From the NCBI RefSeq assembly GCF_964204645.1, contig NC_134030.1, forward strand, positions 4,503,855-4,567,854: a stretch of 64,000 nucleotides of DNA. Reading direction: 5' to 3'. Position 1 is the first letter of the stretch, and each line of letters begins with the position of its first letter. Below, one piece after another: positions 33,210 through 61,780 of this stretch. The position numbers were made by a program, and so were the translations under genes. Under the pieces are notes generated by a model. It did no database searches and was not told the DNA's origin. It worked only from the letters and a program-made list of their open reading frames with translations. The stretch comes from Tubulanus polymorphus (Eukaryota; Nemertea; Palaeonemertea; Tubulaniformes; Tubulanidae).

Positions 33210-35608
<2,399 letters not shown>

Positions 35609-40772: not shown

Positions 40773-42174
40773 GTAAGTCCTCGGGGCATCTATGATATTA
40801 AATCAAGTTGTCATCAGTAGTAATGGCTGACTGGTCGCCTTCCCTACACCGGCAGGAGGTAATTTCTGAATGACTGCCACTAATCTGCATCGCTCTAAGT
40901 ATTCACTGACCGTAGACTTTGTTTATACGTGTTCCAAATGTATGAATTCTTTTGCAGATGGGGGAAAATTTTGAAACGGCAAAACCGAACTAACTCGTTT
41001 GTAAATCGAGTCGGTAGAACACGCCGCGCACGGAGTGTGCGTTGAATATTCGGGTGTTCGTTACATGTTCCACTCCATCGAGTCGGATCTAAAGAGATAT
41101 AGATTAGATTTAAAGTGTTGCTCCTTTATATCAATCAACGCACGGAATCTTTTTCTTTCTATCGTTACCTTGCCAGACTTCAGCCATTAATCAGTTTTCT
41201 CCTCGTCACACGGAATGACAATATTAATGATAACTGAGCCATGATTGCACGTGTACCGCCGCCGAAATGAGAGTTTTGTCACTGCTCGTTTATTTCATTC
41301 TTTGATTGAAAATTCGTGCCCCCTTATACGACTGTCAACTGCTAGTTAGTCAACTGGCGTGTTGCAACTTTGTTACCGGGAATTCAGTCTGCTCGCGTTC
41401 AGGCCTTTAATCCCCATCGCCGAAAGCGATCGGATTTAGAATCTTGCCATCTCGTTTGTCGACTCGACGCGGAGAGCGATATTCACACACAGAGCCTGTG
41501 TATGATGTATGAGCCTAGATTTTCAAAACGACCATAAACTATCATAATCCCAATTCATCCTCTTGGTTGAGGTAGAAGAAATATCCCTCTCGGCCATAAC
41601 TACCGCGGAGCAGCGTAGGCAGTCTGATGTGAATACAGGATTTGCTCTACATTTCATCAACAGACATGTTCTTTGAAAGAAGTTTCATTTGAGGGAATTA
41701 AATGCTTTAAACTAGTGCAACAAAATATTTTTTTCTAAACATCATTTAATAACCAATTCTCCGCCTTTCTTTTTTTGGGAAAGGCTACACTATGATGCGT
41801 CGCGTCGCCTGATGAAAGGATTGTCTCTAATAAAACCATTACGTTCGTACCATAACTCTAGATTACTGAGTGAATTTTATGTACGGCGGTACTATTAAGC
41901 ATGATCTGTTCGCAATTAGACATCTGTCAGATCTCACATAAACATGATGCATGTAAACTCATAGTAACGATACAGCTTTGACTTAGATAGATCGATGAAT
42001 CAAATGGAAATATCTACAGCTAAGAATTTTTTTCGCAGATAAAAAAGAGGGAACACAATACATCGCACGATGCAGCTCGGCTACAAGCAACACTTATCGC
42101 AGACGAAAAAACACTAACAGCGGTCGTGACTGATTTTTGATATTTTTTTCTAAGTTAAATTCTATTCAACATGT

Positions 42175-42279
42175 ACTTAAACGGAATTCTTTTATACTTA
42201 AACGGAATTCTTCTATACTTAAACGGAATTCTTCTATACTTAAACGGAATTCTTCTATACTTAAATGGAATTCTTTTAA
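42175..42279 (+). repeat. Minisatellite, five 21-bp units
   Basis: Five consecutive copies of ACTTAAACGGAATTCTTCTAT, with one base change in the first unit and a few in the last. Each unit contains an EcoRI site (GAATTC). As the unit is a multiple of three it produces a repetitive open frame, which I do not consider a gene. A degenerate sixth unit may lie just upstream. Confidence 0.92.
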
Positions 42280-47614: not shown

Positions 47615-50002
47615 ATGGAGCGTAACATGACTTCTATACAGAACGTTACAGTCCAGTTTATTGGGATGGACGCCGGTCCGGGTCTGGCCGGTTTAGGTAA
47701 TACTACGGACGACTACATATTCGGCTATCCGGACAATGGTCGTTACATCGAAGCTTCTACTTTCGATTTCAATGACATGGAATTCAACGATACGCCAACT
47801 GGATTCCCGTGCTCGGTGTTTAACGATAGCGTTCTATGTAATATATCTTTAACCGGCATCAATGCTACAAACTCAACTTTAACGGGAAAAGGCGACGGTC
47901 TAGATCTTTGGTTGGATATCATTCTAGCCATTTCAGCCGGAATCGTCAGTATAATGACCATATTAGGAAATATATTAGTGTTAATGGCATTTGTCTTAGA
48001 GCGCGCAATTCGACAGCCAACGAACTACTTCATAGCCAGCTTAGCCGTTAGTGATCTGCTTATTGGAATATTTTCAATGAATCTTTATACGCTTTATTTG
48101 CTAATGGGTACATGGCCGCTCGGTGAGCTCATATGCGATCTATGGCTCTCGCTAGATTTCACCGTTTGTTTGACGTCACAGTACACGGTGTTCTTCATCA
48201 CCGTGGATAGATTCTGTTCGGTGAAGATTCCCGCCAAGTATCGCAATTGGCGAACCGAGAAAAAGGTTTTGGCCATGGTGGCGTTTACGTGGATCATACC
48301 GACGTTAGTGTTCTTTACCTCAATCATCGGTTACCAATATTTCGTTGGCGAACGTACGGTCAAACCTGGAGACTGTTACGTTCAATTCCAGGAAAATCCA
48401 CTTTTCAATTGCCTGCTTGTCATCGGCTACTATTGGACGACGTTGTTTGTAATGTGCGGTCTGTACACCGGAATTTACAAAGTCGCACTCGACTTGCAAA
48501 GAAAGTCCGAGGCAAAGCACAAAAAGATGACAAGTTTGGTATCAATGGCCGGGCAAACTATGTCGAAAATTGGTATCGGTATGTCCCGCGCACAAGAGAC
48601 GAACAAGGGAAACAAAAATAACAATATGTGTAACGATAAAAGGCAAGTAGCCGGTACTGAGGCATTGAATCCACCTGGAATGGATCGGACGAGAGCCACA
48701 TCGACAACGAGTTTCAGCTCACAGAAACCGAACAATAAAGATGACGAACGATCGAGTAGTCCGGCTTTCCCGTCAGATACAGACAACGATAGCCATTCAC
48801 CGAAACGCTGTAATTCAAACGAGACCAAGTGTCGCAAAGAGAAAAAACAATGCCAAGGTCACAAAGGACGGGAAAGCAAGAAGGAGAAAGAGAAACGTTT
48901 GAGCAGAGAAAAGAAAGATGCGAGGAAAGATAAAACGAACAGCGGTGAATCAAATCTTAAAGTTCCAGTGACAATCCCGGCGGTTCCGGGCTCGAACTCT
49001 AACACACCCCCGACCGATTCGGGTTACCATACCGTAAGTGTACATTCGTGCGATCCTCATGAATCGCAACAACAACAGCAACAACAACAACAACAACAAC
49101 AACGACGTTCATCTTCCATAGAGAATCCACAAGTACCTGTGGATGATAATAATAAACCCTCCTCTTTAGAGTTGCCAGGTACTTCCATGCCGAATGCCGT
49201 CGATACGCTGTCACCAAGCGCACCCGATATCAGCCTGGTTGCCACACCCGAGCGCATCGAAGGCGTCGGTTACATCGACCAGGAGAGTCTAAAATCTGCA
49301 CAATCATCCGATAATGTTAGGTTGTTAATTGATATTCTTCCAAAGCCGAACGGAAATCCTGTGCGTAGCGAGGAGCCCACAGAAACGTCCCCGATCTGGA
49401 AAAAACGCGAGTCGCTTAATTTCGAAAATACGGACGATCTGCGTAATCCAGCCATCCGAATTCAAGATCCGAGCTCGTGCAGCGGCAACAGCGTGAAGCC
49501 GATGTCGATGCAAGTCGACACAATAGACGATCACAGATCGGCCAGTAAAACGGTGACCAAACTGGCCACTAAAGACGAACTACAGCCGTTGAATGCCGGC
49601 AGCAGTTCGAAATCCGCCAAAAAGAACAAACGACACAAAATCGGCGGCCAACTGGTGTCCAACCTAGCAAAATCTGTCGGTTCCAGAAAACGAAATCGAT
49701 CGAAGAAGGAAAAACAAAAATCAAAATCGGAAAATCGGGCGCGCAAAGCCTTGAGGACAATAACATTCATTTTAGGTGCGTTTGTATTATGCTGGACTCC
49801 GTATCACGTATTGGTGATCGTAATGGGGCTTTGCCCGAACCAAGCTGACGTATATTCCTGTGTTAACAGGCGGCTATTTGAGTTCAGTTATTGGCTATGT
49901 TACTTGAACAGTCCGGTCAACCCGTTTTGTTACGCGTTGGCCAATGCGCAATTCAAAAAGACATTTTTACGTATTCTGAATCGAGATTTTCACCGCACTT
50001 GA
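47615..50002 (+). CDS. mAChR-B: Muscarinic acetylcholine receptor, B-type
   Basis: A 795-residue class A GPCR for acetylcholine encoded in one exon. The extracellular N-terminus has eight N-glycosylation sequons (N4, 10, 29, 58, 70, 76, 83, 86). TM1 spans about 99-125 and TM2 has D147 (2.50). C174 and C254 form the conserved disulfide. TM3 carries the amine-binding D181 (3.32) and a DRF motif at 198-200. TM5 is followed by the basic segment YKVALDLQRKSEAKHKKM, then a very long third loop (about 290-709) rich in Ser/Lys with a 12-Gln tract. TM6 has W727 and TPYH (728-731); TM7 has YWLCY and NPFCY (769-773). LWLSLDFTVCLTSQYT and IGYYWTT are characteristic of protostome B-type receptors, which couple to Gi/o and respond poorly to muscarine and atropine. 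The start is the first ATG after the splice acceptor, with an in-frame TAG 12 bases upstream. The short tail ends soon after helix 8. Confidence 0.93.
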   Translation: MERNMTSIQNVTVQFIGMDAGPGLAGLGNTTDDYIFGYPDNGRYIEASTFDFNDMEFNDTPTGFPCSVFNDSVLCNISLTGINATNSTLTGKGDGLDLWLDIILAISAGIVSIMTILGNILVLMAFVLERAIRQPTNYFIASLAVSDLLIGIFSMNLYTLYLLMGTWPLGELICDLWLSLDFTVCLTSQYTVFFITVDRFCSVKIPAKYRNWRTEKKVLAMVAFTWIIPTLVFFTSIIGYQYFVGERTVKPGDCYVQFQENPLFNCLLVIGYYWTTLFVMCGLYTGIYKVALDLQRKSEAKHKKMTSLVSMAGQTMSKIGIGMSRAQETNKGNKNNNMCNDKRQVAGTEALNPPGMDRTRATSTTSFSSQKPNNKDDERSSSPAFPSDTDNDSHSPKRCNSNETKCRKEKKQCQGHKGRESKKEKEKRLSREKKDARKDKTNSGESNLKVPVTIPAVPGSNSNTPPTDSGYHTVSVHSCDPHESQQQQQQQQQQQQRRSSSIENPQVPVDDNNKPSSLELPGTSMPNAVDTLSPSAPDISLVATPERIEGVGYIDQESLKSAQSSDNVRLLIDILPKPNGNPVRSEEPTETSPIWKKRESLNFENTDDLRNPAIRIQDPSSCSGNSVKPMSMQVDTIDDHRSASKTVTKLATKDELQPLNAGSSSKSAKKNKRHKIGGQLVSNLAKSVGSRKRNRSKKEKQKSKSENRARKALRTITFILGAFVLCWTPYHVLVIVMGLCPNQADVYSCVNRRLFEFSYWLCYLNSPVNPFCYALANAQFKKTFLRILNRDFHRT
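49067..49102 (+). repeat. CAA/CAG triplet tract encoding 12 Gln
   Basis: Eleven CAA and one CAG codon in a row within the third intracellular loop of the receptor, flanked by Ser-rich sequence. The tract is likely length-variable between individuals. Confidence 0.95.
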
Positions 50003-55970: not shown

Positions 55971-57001
55971 ATGGACTACAGGCCGTTGGTATTTCTGTCA
56001 TTGCTGTGCATTTTAGGTACGTACGATTTTACATCGAAACTATCAATTACGCAACCATCTCTCGAAATTACCTTACTTACTTACTTTACTGAGTCTTAAT
56101 ACAAAGACAATTTGAGTGATACAGTACATAAAAATAGATACATCGTACACGACGTACAGTAGCTATAGATAGCTACTAAAATATCGATTTAAATACGAGC
56201 TATTATTAGGGAATCAAGCGAAAAATCTCATAATTCTACCAATAAAAATACACAGTATACGAAGTTCGGCTCTGTCTTTGGTTTGCATTAATGATTTAAG
56301 TTTGAAAAGGTTGGGGTTCGTATAAAATCTCCTGTCGACGCTACGATTTGTTGAACTTCAAAATCGCGGATACGAACAAAATTATGGATTTTGGGAGAAA
56401 GGGGAACTACAACGTCAAAATGAGACTTAACTACTGCTAAATGATCCGTACATTCTGTATCAGTCAATAGTTATAAAATATACATCTTAAATTTTCAATT
56501 AATGAATGTTGTTCTGTAGGTTGTTCGGGTCTGAAATGTCAAAATAAGGTTGTCAATGTTAACGGCGAAACTAAGGCTGACTATGGCTTTTGTTACAGTC
56601 AATATTGCGTGGTAAGGATATTTTACTTTTACTATATAGTAATCTACTATCTTGTATCTGTTTGCGTAGCTTAATTCATTCAACATTGATTAAACTTAAA
56701 ATGGACGATTTCCCAATTTTAAGAAGAATTCGAATAACAGCGGATCGATTAAAGAAAGTTGTCGTCACTTGAGCTGTAACATAAACATTAAAAACGTTAA
56801 TTTCAGAAAACCACGTCGATGATGGATATTCGCTACAGCTGTTCAACTGACTGTCAGATGGGTCATTTCAACGACCGTATCGTTGAATGCTGCGATGAAT
56901 CGGACTTATGCAATTCGACGGCGAAACTTCGTTATTCGTCTTCGATGTTTCTCGTCTCGATTGTCGCGTTGATGTTGTTGTTGTTGATTCAGCGGGTTTA
57001 G
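55971..57001 (+). CDS. Ly6/uPAR three-finger GPI-anchored protein (3 exons)
   Basis: I assembled the model join(55971..56016,56520..56611,56807..57001), 110 residues. Splice sites are GTACGT/TTCTGTAG and GTAAGG/TTTCAG, in phases 1 and 0. Residues 1-19 are a signal peptide ending at GCSG, and the mature chain starts LKC, as is usual for the family. Cysteines are at 22, 40, 45, 58, 62, 74, 75 and 81, and the domain closes with the hallmark ECC-x5-CN (73-82). A Ser-rich stretch (90-92) and a hydrophobic C-terminus (93-110) form a GPI-attachment signal. There is an N-glycosylation site at N82. Eight cysteines instead of ten suggests one disulfide of the canonical fold is missing. Family members act at the cell surface as receptor modulators (Lynx, quiver/sleepless) or junction components. 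The specific role here is not evident. The start is the only Met giving a signal peptide. Confidence 0.88.
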
Positions 57002-57770: not shown

Positions 57771-58173
57771 GAAACAAGGCCTGATAACTAATTTGAAAGC
57801 AACCGCGCGTGCTTTCTACATGTGCGTGCCACCACTGGTGCGGCGTCAGTTTAAGAGACGACTGTTTGATTATTTCGTCAGTCATTTTGCCCGAATTCGT
57901 CTCGTAGACTCGTCGAAGCGTCATTCGTTCAAATCAAATATAAATGAAGAACCCGTCCGTTCTCAAGTTGAAATCAAGACAACAAAGAAGCATACATGTT
58001 TGCACAGATGTTTTTCTTTTATTTTCCAGCCAGAATATAATCACAATTTGAGTATACGCGCCCCTGAAATGCCCGGTAAATAATACCAAATCTAAACAAA
58101 ACTCACAGAATTACGACGACATCAGGAATGATTCGCGCACGAAACTTGGATATCAGAAACGCACACATCCTCT

Positions 58174-58179
58174 TTTATT
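58174..58179 (-). terminator. Poly(A) signal, HFAamide-type gene
   Basis: AATAAA on the minus strand about 490 bases after the stop codon. A second one is at 58018-58023. Which is used cannot be told. Confidence 0.35.
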
Positions 58180-58668: not shown

Positions 58669-61600
58669 TCAAGAAACGACCGGCGTGTGTAGCAGGCTCC
58701 GGCGACGTCGTCGTTGTTTGAAGTCATCCTTGTCAAACACGTCGGATGATCGCTGCGCGTGCTTCGACCTCAGTTCCTCTAAGAGCAACCTGAAAAGAAC
58801 AAAATCGACCTTTATTTTTTCTGTGTGGACATACTATATTCGACTATATTTTCCTCATGTTCGACAGACGACTGGCTGCGCGAAAACGGAACCGAGGAAT
58901 CTGCGTAGGCTTGATAATAGTTAAAAGTATTTCTAAATAAATTCTACTCAGCTTAGTGCTGATTACTGTGACGTAGGTATGTAGGTGGAAGATCACACTT
59001 TGACAGCGCACATAACCCGAGCTCTTAATGGCATCATTACTATTCTATATATATATATTTATGTATTTTTGATGTAAATGTCAATTGATCTAAGTGATTA
59101 TTAACCTTGCACATTGCAGCAACTGATTTTCCCCCCAATAATACCTTGAAAATAGGATGTCTAATCAAACTAGTTTCGAGCCCAAGCATTTCGAAGCTCA
59201 AGAATGCCGTATAGATAATCCCCGTGAGCGATGAGACAAACCGAACTCCCAAAAGATTAGTTCGACATTCCAGGCGTAAGTGTATATTCAATTAGTTCGA
59301 CAACTTATCAAACGAAATTGTGTTCTCTATCTTCTCTTTTGAATCGTAATACTTTTTCCCTAACGTTAAAAAGTCCTGATTTTCTTCATTAACTTTTTCC
59401 TCCGAGGCGTCGATGGTTTTTTCTTCGTCGGCAGCGGACAAAAAGTTTTGCGATGGTTTTTCGAACACTCGATTCTTTCCTTATCTACAGTAAACGCATC
59501 ACAAACGACGCGGGAAATTTCCCATCGACGCATTTCCGGGTTCGCAGAGAAAATTACCAGACACTATCAGCCTGAATTGGTCCAAGCATTTGAACGTCGC
59601 GGATTCGATAAACTAAGGCCTTGCTTCCGAAAGCGTTGTAACCGCAAGACGATTGCGCTAGATAACCCCTCCAGATAATATACATTGTGTGCTAAAAGGC
59701 AAAACTAACTATAAAAGATGACTCCGTATCAAACTTGCAAATCATAATATTGTGGCTGATTTGGGCAACGTCCGATAATCATCCTCCACGAGAATGTGCA
59801 AAACCGATTTCAAACGTGCAAAAACAATTACACCGTTTTATAATTTTCCGTTTCAACACGTTCTCGTGGAATGAAACATATTTTTTTTTTGCGTTGTCGT
59901 AGTGGATGATTAAGATATAAGCATGTGGCCGCCATATAAATCCATACAACATCTTCAACGAGATGCGGTTTTAATAATCTTTTACGACCACTTAACCGTA
60001 GTACAAATCGCATGCGAACAGCGTTATCAATGCTAAGGTCAAACTATTCAATCCATCGTAGATATTTCAGAACTTATATTCAAACGTTCAGAACAACGTC
60101 TTAAGCTCACGCCTAATTGAAATAGATTCGCCGAATAAGATGATGACAATATTCAGCCCGAGTATCATGGTAGAGATGGGGTTTTAGATCTCAAAACTTA
60201 AGACGGGGCGAAAGTTGTTTGATTGTTATAGACTAAGGAAGATGGTTCTAGACTTGTCTAAGCTATGACGATGGAACCGGCACCATATTGCGCGTACCTC
60301 ATTGAAACCATCATCAGTTCGGTAGTTTAACAGATTTAAATGCACTACGTTGTAAGTGAAAGGTGGGGGTGTAATCGCTCCAATGATGACCATCACATTA
60401 GTCTTCATATACTTCACAATCGGTTGTTATAATTGACTGATAATCTGGCTAGAGTATAATTGACCGACGTCAAACAACTCCACCCGGGGACGTGTAGCCT
60501 TTGCGATAATTCTCCAAAGTGACGCTGACTTCGCAAGATTTGCAAGAACCTCGATAATTGGACAAACACAGCCCGGGTAACGAAAAATGGAAACAGTTTA
60601 AACTATCCTAAAACGATGATCTTGATGCTAATGTTGCTGAGTTTGGCTTTCTCTATTTCATATTTTACTTTCTTCCGAGAAGATTTCTTTTTTCTTTTTT
60701 TTTCAGACACGATATTTCCACGCAACGATCTTTGCATTGACGTGAGTGGGCAAATTGAAAAATAGTATCATTTTGCGTCTGGATTTTGTACCAGGGCTGA
60801 CGAAAATGAATATCCGTGTGCAATTGCCAAATAGACCAGCCGAAATGCTCGTTCGTGAGAATTTCGAAAATCAATTTCGCAATTTCTTGGAATTCAAATG
60901 CAGAATAGATAGTTAATGACTTGCACAATATTGCGTCAACAGGAATCAGTGAGTACATCCATATGCCCGCATCTGCTAGACAAGGAAACGCCATTATGCT
61001 CCATTGATGGTTAAGAATTTACAAAGGAGAAAGAAATTAATTTTTTTCCTTCTTTTTCCGTAGATCCGCAAGTGCGGTGGAGTCGGTGTGGTGGTGGGGG
61101 AATGTGAACTTTGAAAAGCTGCAGAGCTTGCTATATTTTCTAATAGATATTAGATCAGTTATGCGTTTAGCTAAGCATTTTTGTATCTAAAAACAGACAA
61201 AATTCTGAAATACGAACAAACTCCTGAGATATACATAACCTGTATTCAAATTAAATGATGTTTTCATTAGTTCTCGAAATATTCTCTATATCTAAAAAGT
61301 AGTTATATTCGTGTGCAATTTAGCGTATGATACTCACTTTTTGAGGCGACTGATTACTTTTGTATCAGACATAACACCATCGAGAAAATTCTTTAAGTCC
61401 TCGCTGTAATGTTCGGTTTGGCTGGCCAGACTAATCTGAGTCGGTTCGTCCCAAGACGAAGCCACGTCGTTCACCGTATCACTGGACCGAGTCCTAGAAC
61501 TGCGGAATGTATTTTGCTCGAACGCATCACCGTTTTCTTCCCGTCTAACGCCGCCGCCGCCGCCGCCACCACCGCCGAGTTTTGAGGACGACGACGATGG

Positions 61601-61780
61601 AAAATTGCGTTTCCCGGCGAAGTGTGTGTAGTTACATTTGCAGGCAGGCCCACCCATCTGTCGTAAACACTGGCGGGCGCACCACTTCACTTTATTGAAA
61701 CACGTCGAATACGGACACGCAAGCAGTATGATAAACGCGAACGTACAAAAAGTCGACGAAAACCGCCCCGTGAATTTCAT
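58669..61780 (-). CDS. HFAamide-type cysteine-rich neuropeptide precursor (2 exons)
   Basis: I assembled the model complement(join(58669..58789,61338..61780)), 187 residues. The signal peptide ends about residue 21 (CTFAFIILLA). Next comes a six-cysteine peptide (C22, C27, C34, C38, C47, C49; C-x4-C-x6-C-x3-C-x8-C-x-C) ending CKCNYTHFA-GKR (47-58). The Gly is an amidation donor and the Lys-Arg a convertase site, so the product is a peptide of about 34 residues with a C-terminal HFA-amide. A linker follows with a nine-Gly run (69-77), RR (79-80), a Leu/Lys/Glu-rich helix (about 143-161) and a pentabasic site RRRRR (174-178). The HFA-amide ending is how I recall lophotrochozoan HFAamide prohormones; no search was done. 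Exon 1 ends in phase 2 at AAA/GTGAGT. That donor contains an in-frame TGA, so unspliced reading stops at 148 residues. Exon 2 follows TTTTGTTCTTTTCAG. Confidence 0.75.

Follow-up and report, generated by a model that had tools for sequence, protein, structure and literature searches.

A probable HFAamide-type prohormone gene and a candidate paralog with an MWL-amide ending

The window, that is, the whole stretch of 64,000 nucleotides analysed here, carries on its minus strand a gene for a probable HFAamide-type precursor (Table 1). An in-phase join of 61780-61338 to 58789-58669 gives 187 residues and a stop codon. The coding part of exon 1 provides 147 codons and two bases of a split codon, and the intron (GTGAGT...TTTTCAG) interrupts that codon after its second base. 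The original prediction of exons joining in phase at good splice sites is thereby confirmed, and the signal-like start, the HFA-GKR (residues 53-58), and the RRRRR (residues 174-178) that it described are all present in the product. THFA-GKR occupies 61607-61627, an HFAamide-type ending followed by Gly and a basic site. The window gave no match to Rfam at the gathering cut-off.

Several other features lie in the same window. An uninterrupted 795-residue open reading frame (ORF) on the plus strand (47615-50002) encodes a G protein-coupled receptor (GPCR; Pfam 7tm_1, E = 2.9e-56) with a very long third loop, which looks like a muscarinic acetylcholine receptor. A short plus-strand ORF without a Pfam match (56819-57001) looks similar to the terminal exon of a GPI-anchored protein of the Ly6/uPAR type. 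An AT dinucleotide array of 92 copies is found at 35421-35605, and at 42174-42275 a 21-base unit is repeated in tandem about five times.

Table 1. Coordinates of the precursor gene in the window and of its candidate paralog elsewhere in the genome
Feature	Position	Strand	Remarks
Exon 1, coding part	61338..61780	-	ATG, signal peptide, mature peptide, GKR, poly-Gly spacer
Predicted signal peptide	61700..61780	-	Residues 1-27, with Cys12, Cys22, and Cys27
Predicted mature peptide, FNKVKWCARQCLRQMGGPACKCNYTHFA-NH2	61616..61699	-	Residues 28-55, four Cys; aligned with the paralog core
GKR, amide donor and dibasic convertase site	61607..61615	-	Residues 56-58; conserved in the paralog
Predicted intron	58790..61337	-	2548 bases, GTGAGT...TTTTGTTCTTTTCAG
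Predicted exon 2, to stop codon	58669..58789	-	One split-codon base, then LLLEELRSKHAQRSSDVFDKDDFKQRRRRRSLLHTPVVS
RRRRR, possible second convertase site	58699..58713	-	Residues 174-178
AATAAA, first poly(A)-signal-like hexamer past exon 2	58174..58179	-	Chance frequency in window, weak
Candidate paralog precursor, 104 residues	G000:C10:9992340-9992654 = L002:1450-1764	+	Four-Cys core, VMWL-GKR ending

Because the donor GTGAGT contains a TGA stop codon (61336-61334), the unspliced ORF of exon 1 (61780-61334) is complete in itself, at 148 residues. A single-exon gene that ends at this TGA and leaves exon 2 unused is a possible, if doubtful, reading. It is favored by the completeness of that ORF, by the paralog described below, which likewise runs in one exon from signal peptide through stop codon, and by the behavior of exon 2 itself, which has no match elsewhere in the genome, no significant match within the 19.8 kb of sequence that surrounds the paralog, and a codon score that is not unusual. 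Under a codon-usage model trained on one gene only, the long receptor gene of the window, the score of exon 2 was equaled by 86 of 703 noncoding open stretches and by 16 of the 38 with similar GC content; other frames of the same stretch, with stops or on the opposite strand, outscored it, and exon 1, in its signal-plus-core part, did not surpass it. Codon usage thus does not separate exon 2 from chance. The splice signals argue the other way, since the stop codon sits within a near-consensus donor. A survey listed 277 [CT]AG acceptor sites between 60 and 12,000 bases downstream of the donor. In five, including the proposed one, the pyrimidine tract equals or exceeds that of the proposed acceptor in richness, and among these five the proposed acceptor alone opens at least 40 codons, as do 41 of the 277, again including it, irrespective of the tract. 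Also against a single exon, the minus strand contains no AATAAA between 58817 and 61337; one lies within the intron at 58811-58816, and a second hexamer downstream of exon 2 is found at 58018. Since AATAAA occurs in the window at chance frequency (120 observed versus 118.7 expected), its pattern is weak evidence. On its splice signals, exon 2 is plausible and, on balance, probably genuine. Of the predicted two-exon structure, the in-phase join and the splice signals stand, and exon 2 has the backing of neither codon usage nor a genome match.

The precursor begins with a predicted signal peptide according to a von Heijne weight matrix (with a small added penalty), which scores cleavage after Cys27 at 5.63 versus 2.60 for the second-best site, after Ala21. 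Given these scores, and given that the paralog has no upstream Cys and has a KRRK site directly before the aligned Phe, Cys22 and Cys27 most likely belong to the signal peptide. The mature product is most likely a 28-residue peptide with four Cys and two disulfides, FNKVKWCARQCLRQMGGPACKCNYTHFA-amide. The original prediction of a 34-residue peptide with six Cys and three disulfides would need cleavage after Ala21, which would place Cys22 and Cys27 in the mature peptide; the second rank of that site speaks for such a product. Its lower score, together with the paralog, which has only the other four Cys and none ahead of them, makes it unlikely, and we replace it with the four-Cys form. The computed [M+H]+ is about 3255.52 for the 28-residue amide with two disulfides versus about 3907.71 for the 34-residue, six-Cys form; for the peptide of the paralog it is about 3355.60, or 2696.23 with an additional cut at its inner KR.

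The first 61 residues of the window precursor were used as a query against the assembly (268 Mb in 77 contigs) at E values of up to 10. Besides the gene itself, they led to two other places, C10:9992391-9992543 (E = 4.9e-4) and one in L003 (E = 0.044). The ORF on C10 likewise opens with a hydrophobic stretch and contains a KRRK site and a core, FDLKRFCSRVCLVNQGGHICRCNYVMWL-GKR. Both genes share the spacing C-x3-C-x8-C-x-C-N-Y-x4-G-K-R, and these four Cys are the only ones in the C10 protein. The 31-residue cores align without gaps, with 14 of 31 columns identical (F, the four Cys, R, L, GG, NY, and GKR). Of the 24 positions that belong to neither Cys nor GKR, 7 are identical, and a score this high was reached by only 2 of 200,000 shuffled versions of the paralog. 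In reciprocal searches, each 31-residue core retrieved the other (E = 0.0018 and 0.0017), and the other gene was the sole further match without an internal stop among the best candidates, which are all that the tool scores, so that further family members are possible. The KRRK of the C10 protein ends exactly before the Phe aligned with Phe28 of the window precursor, which independently suggests a peptide N terminus at Phe28. Three signal cleavage sites in the C10 protein, between residues 27 and 32, have nearly equal scores, and all precede KRRK. The two genes thus appear to be paralogs, with one scaffold and two tails, THFA and VMWL. The predicted amidated, Cys-rich prohormone is well supported by this architecture and by a paralog that shares the Cys spacing, GG, CNY, and GKR.

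Four further candidates were set aside. The L003 match has no GKR end and overlaps, on the same strand, an ORF with tetratricopeptide repeats; the match in L022 (E = 0.14) has a stop inside the matched stretch and no GKR. Those in L006 (E = 2.07, no Pfam match) and L007 (E = 5.18) were taken as chance. About 4.3 kb from the C10 gene, a 515-residue ORF lies on the minus strand (L008:4659-6206), and its first part weakly resembles amiloride-sensitive sodium channels (ASC; E = 1.6e-4, 21.3 bits, cut-off of 23.6).

The spacing of the four Cys also raises the question of whether the cores are fragments of an EGF-like domain rather than peptide hormones, a reading that we consider extremely improbable. 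The paralog core shows weak similarity, at the same C-x3-C-x8-C-x-C spacing, to FXa_inhibition (E = 0.047, 14.3 bits versus a cut-off of 33.4) and to one EGF repeat in the LDL receptor (best E = 0.56). Neither match is significant, a Pfam search with the window protein gave nothing at E values of up to 1, and the best match of its core in the PDB (E = 1) is at the level of chance. Furthermore, GKR is fixed four residues past CNY in both proteins, with no intervening Cys that could close an EGF fold. We therefore rejected kinship with EGF domains, for which neither a score at the Pfam cut-off nor six Cys were found.

We return to the peptide hormone reading. The predicted product would arise by signal peptidase cleavage after Cys27, a cut by a furin/PC2-type convertase after Lys57-Arg58, trimming of the basic residues by a carboxypeptidase, and use of Gly56 by an amidating enzyme, all steps proposed from the sequence, and would be FNKVKWCARQCLRQMGGPACKCNYTHFA-amide with two disulfides. 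A C-x3-C in a helix paired with a C-x-C in a strand is a clamp used by several known peptides. By analogy with such helix-strand clamps, Cys34 would likely pair with Cys47 and Cys38 with Cys49. Projecting from the disulfide clamp, the amidated tail would act on a receptor at the cell surface, most likely a GPCR, and the site of action may be neurons or secretory cells of larvae or juveniles. The receptors addressed may differ between the two tails. Overall, the window gene probably encodes a secreted, cleaved, and amidated HFAamide-type peptide with two disulfides and has a paralog that shares its core.

The amidating enzyme is present in animals generally, and its presence here is assumed on that ground. 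Its Pfam family has 29 exon-level matches in the genome. When four of them were compared with the PDB, dopamine beta-hydroxylase ranked first every time; for one of the four, the amidating enzyme was a further match (E = 0.037 versus 0.0045 for dopamine beta-hydroxylase). On these four matches, the enzyme is not separable from dopamine beta-hydroxylase relatives. Four sets of exon matches to the copper monooxygenase family are spaced 12 to 13 kb apart at G000:C3:23388139-23427735, suggesting a tandem array.

The nature of the host was approached through other genome searches. A 17-base pattern for RGWGKR gave 18 genome matches versus 9 for the reversed control, and 6 of the 18 fall within 140 bases (C2:11865407-11865546, minus strand) in runs of two and four. 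The ORF containing this cluster (L029:1359-1700) has 113 residues, a signal-like start, and a Cys past the last copy. We interpret it as a putative exon of an RGWamide-type prohormone with six RGWGKR copies. Section 11 of PMC8557429 describes RGWamide precursors with copies in direct succession in several brachiopods and nemerteans, and the clustered copies and trailing Cys of the ORF on C2 are much like the precursors in that section. Because of this RGWamide-type prohormone with its six clustered RGWGKR copies, the host is taken to be a trochozoan. A 20-base pattern for APGWGKR, a repeated mollusc peptide, had no match across the genome. The trochozoan is probably not a mollusc, and a brachiopod or a nemertean would be no more than a guess. 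Searches of the genome for cytochrome oxidase I, hemerythrin, annelid hemoglobin linker, and mollusc hemocyanin likewise gave no match; those for the hemoglobin linker and the hemocyanin were run without a positive control and are silent on absence.

The window gene is most probably a real peptide hormone gene of an already known kind and is a probable new member of the HFAamide family, in which it is placed by its HFA ending and its trochozoan host. We take the HFA ending to be the family-defining trait from the name HFAamide. The type proposed in the original prediction agrees with the host and with the ending after which the family is named, and the comparison with the published precursors is one of descriptions rather than of sequence letters. 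The second gene has the same core and precursor plan and ends in NY-VMWL-amide; for this reason the family would be better defined by the four-Cys core and CNY-x4-GKR than by HFA. A family defined by its core would let searches find members without an HFA ending. The paralog pair, in which one scaffold carries two distinct tails, offers a concrete test on orphan receptors, and it is the divergent MWL-amide paralog that is the more interesting and useful new point of this analysis.

HFAamides have been described in passages of the literature from annelids, oyster, nemerteans, brachiopods, and phoronids (PMC3890597, PMC8398477, PMC8557429). HFAa is listed among the lophotrochozoan families in one of these passages (PMC3890597), and HFAamide is given for nemerteans, brachiopods, and phoronids in another (PMC8557429). 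The oyster passage places HFA expression mainly in larvae, with a low level in the visceral ganglia (PMC8398477), which does not favor a neuronal role in adults. In Platynereis, in situ hybridization as described in a passage of PMC5747525 detected HFAa in 3-day larvae and not in 2-day larvae. Molluscs and nine further lophotrochozoan phyla are surveyed in PMC6425005, whose main text does not contain the term HFA. The suggestion that the HFAamide receptor is not well established fits the statement in PMC8557429 that the receptors of many lophotrochozoan peptides are unknown, a passage that does not name HFAamide itself.

Trissin-type receptors are named among the lophotrochozoan orphans in a passage of PMC8557429. 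It is conceivable, but in our view very unlikely, that both genes form a four-Cys family, with HFA as one variant, that supplies the missing ligands of these receptors and that represents a trissin lineage with one disulfide lost and an amide gained. As described in passages of PMC7179676 and PMC8449533, arthropod trissin is a 27- to 29-residue peptide directly after the signal peptide. Like the window peptide, it is short, lies directly behind the signal peptide, and has C-x3-C, two close Cys, N, and Y or F; unlike it, the trissin given there has six Cys, no amidation site, another loop length, and another position of the last Cys. In four comparisons with trissin sequences taken from two papers, the observed score was reached by 1015, 1414, 324, and 625 of 2000 shuffles with Cys fixed and by 694, 1213, 134, and 351 of 2000 free shuffles. 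Phoronids, for which the passage in PMC8557429 reports HFAamide and no trissin-type receptor, show a pattern contrary to such a pairing. Kinship with trissin was rejected on this lack of significant similarity, on a mature core with four Cys rather than six, and on the phoronid pattern.

The CCWamide and agatoxin-like peptides in the passage of PMC8557429 resemble the window peptide in being Cys rich, amidated, spiralian, and present once per precursor. The main-text passages on HFAamide give no second, non-HFA paralog, sequence letters, Cys count, or receptor, and the present genome differs from those accounts in having a second gene with an MWL-amide ending. The HFAamide proneuropeptides they describe and the window gene are alike in their amidated HFA ending, their signal peptide, and their trochozoan host.
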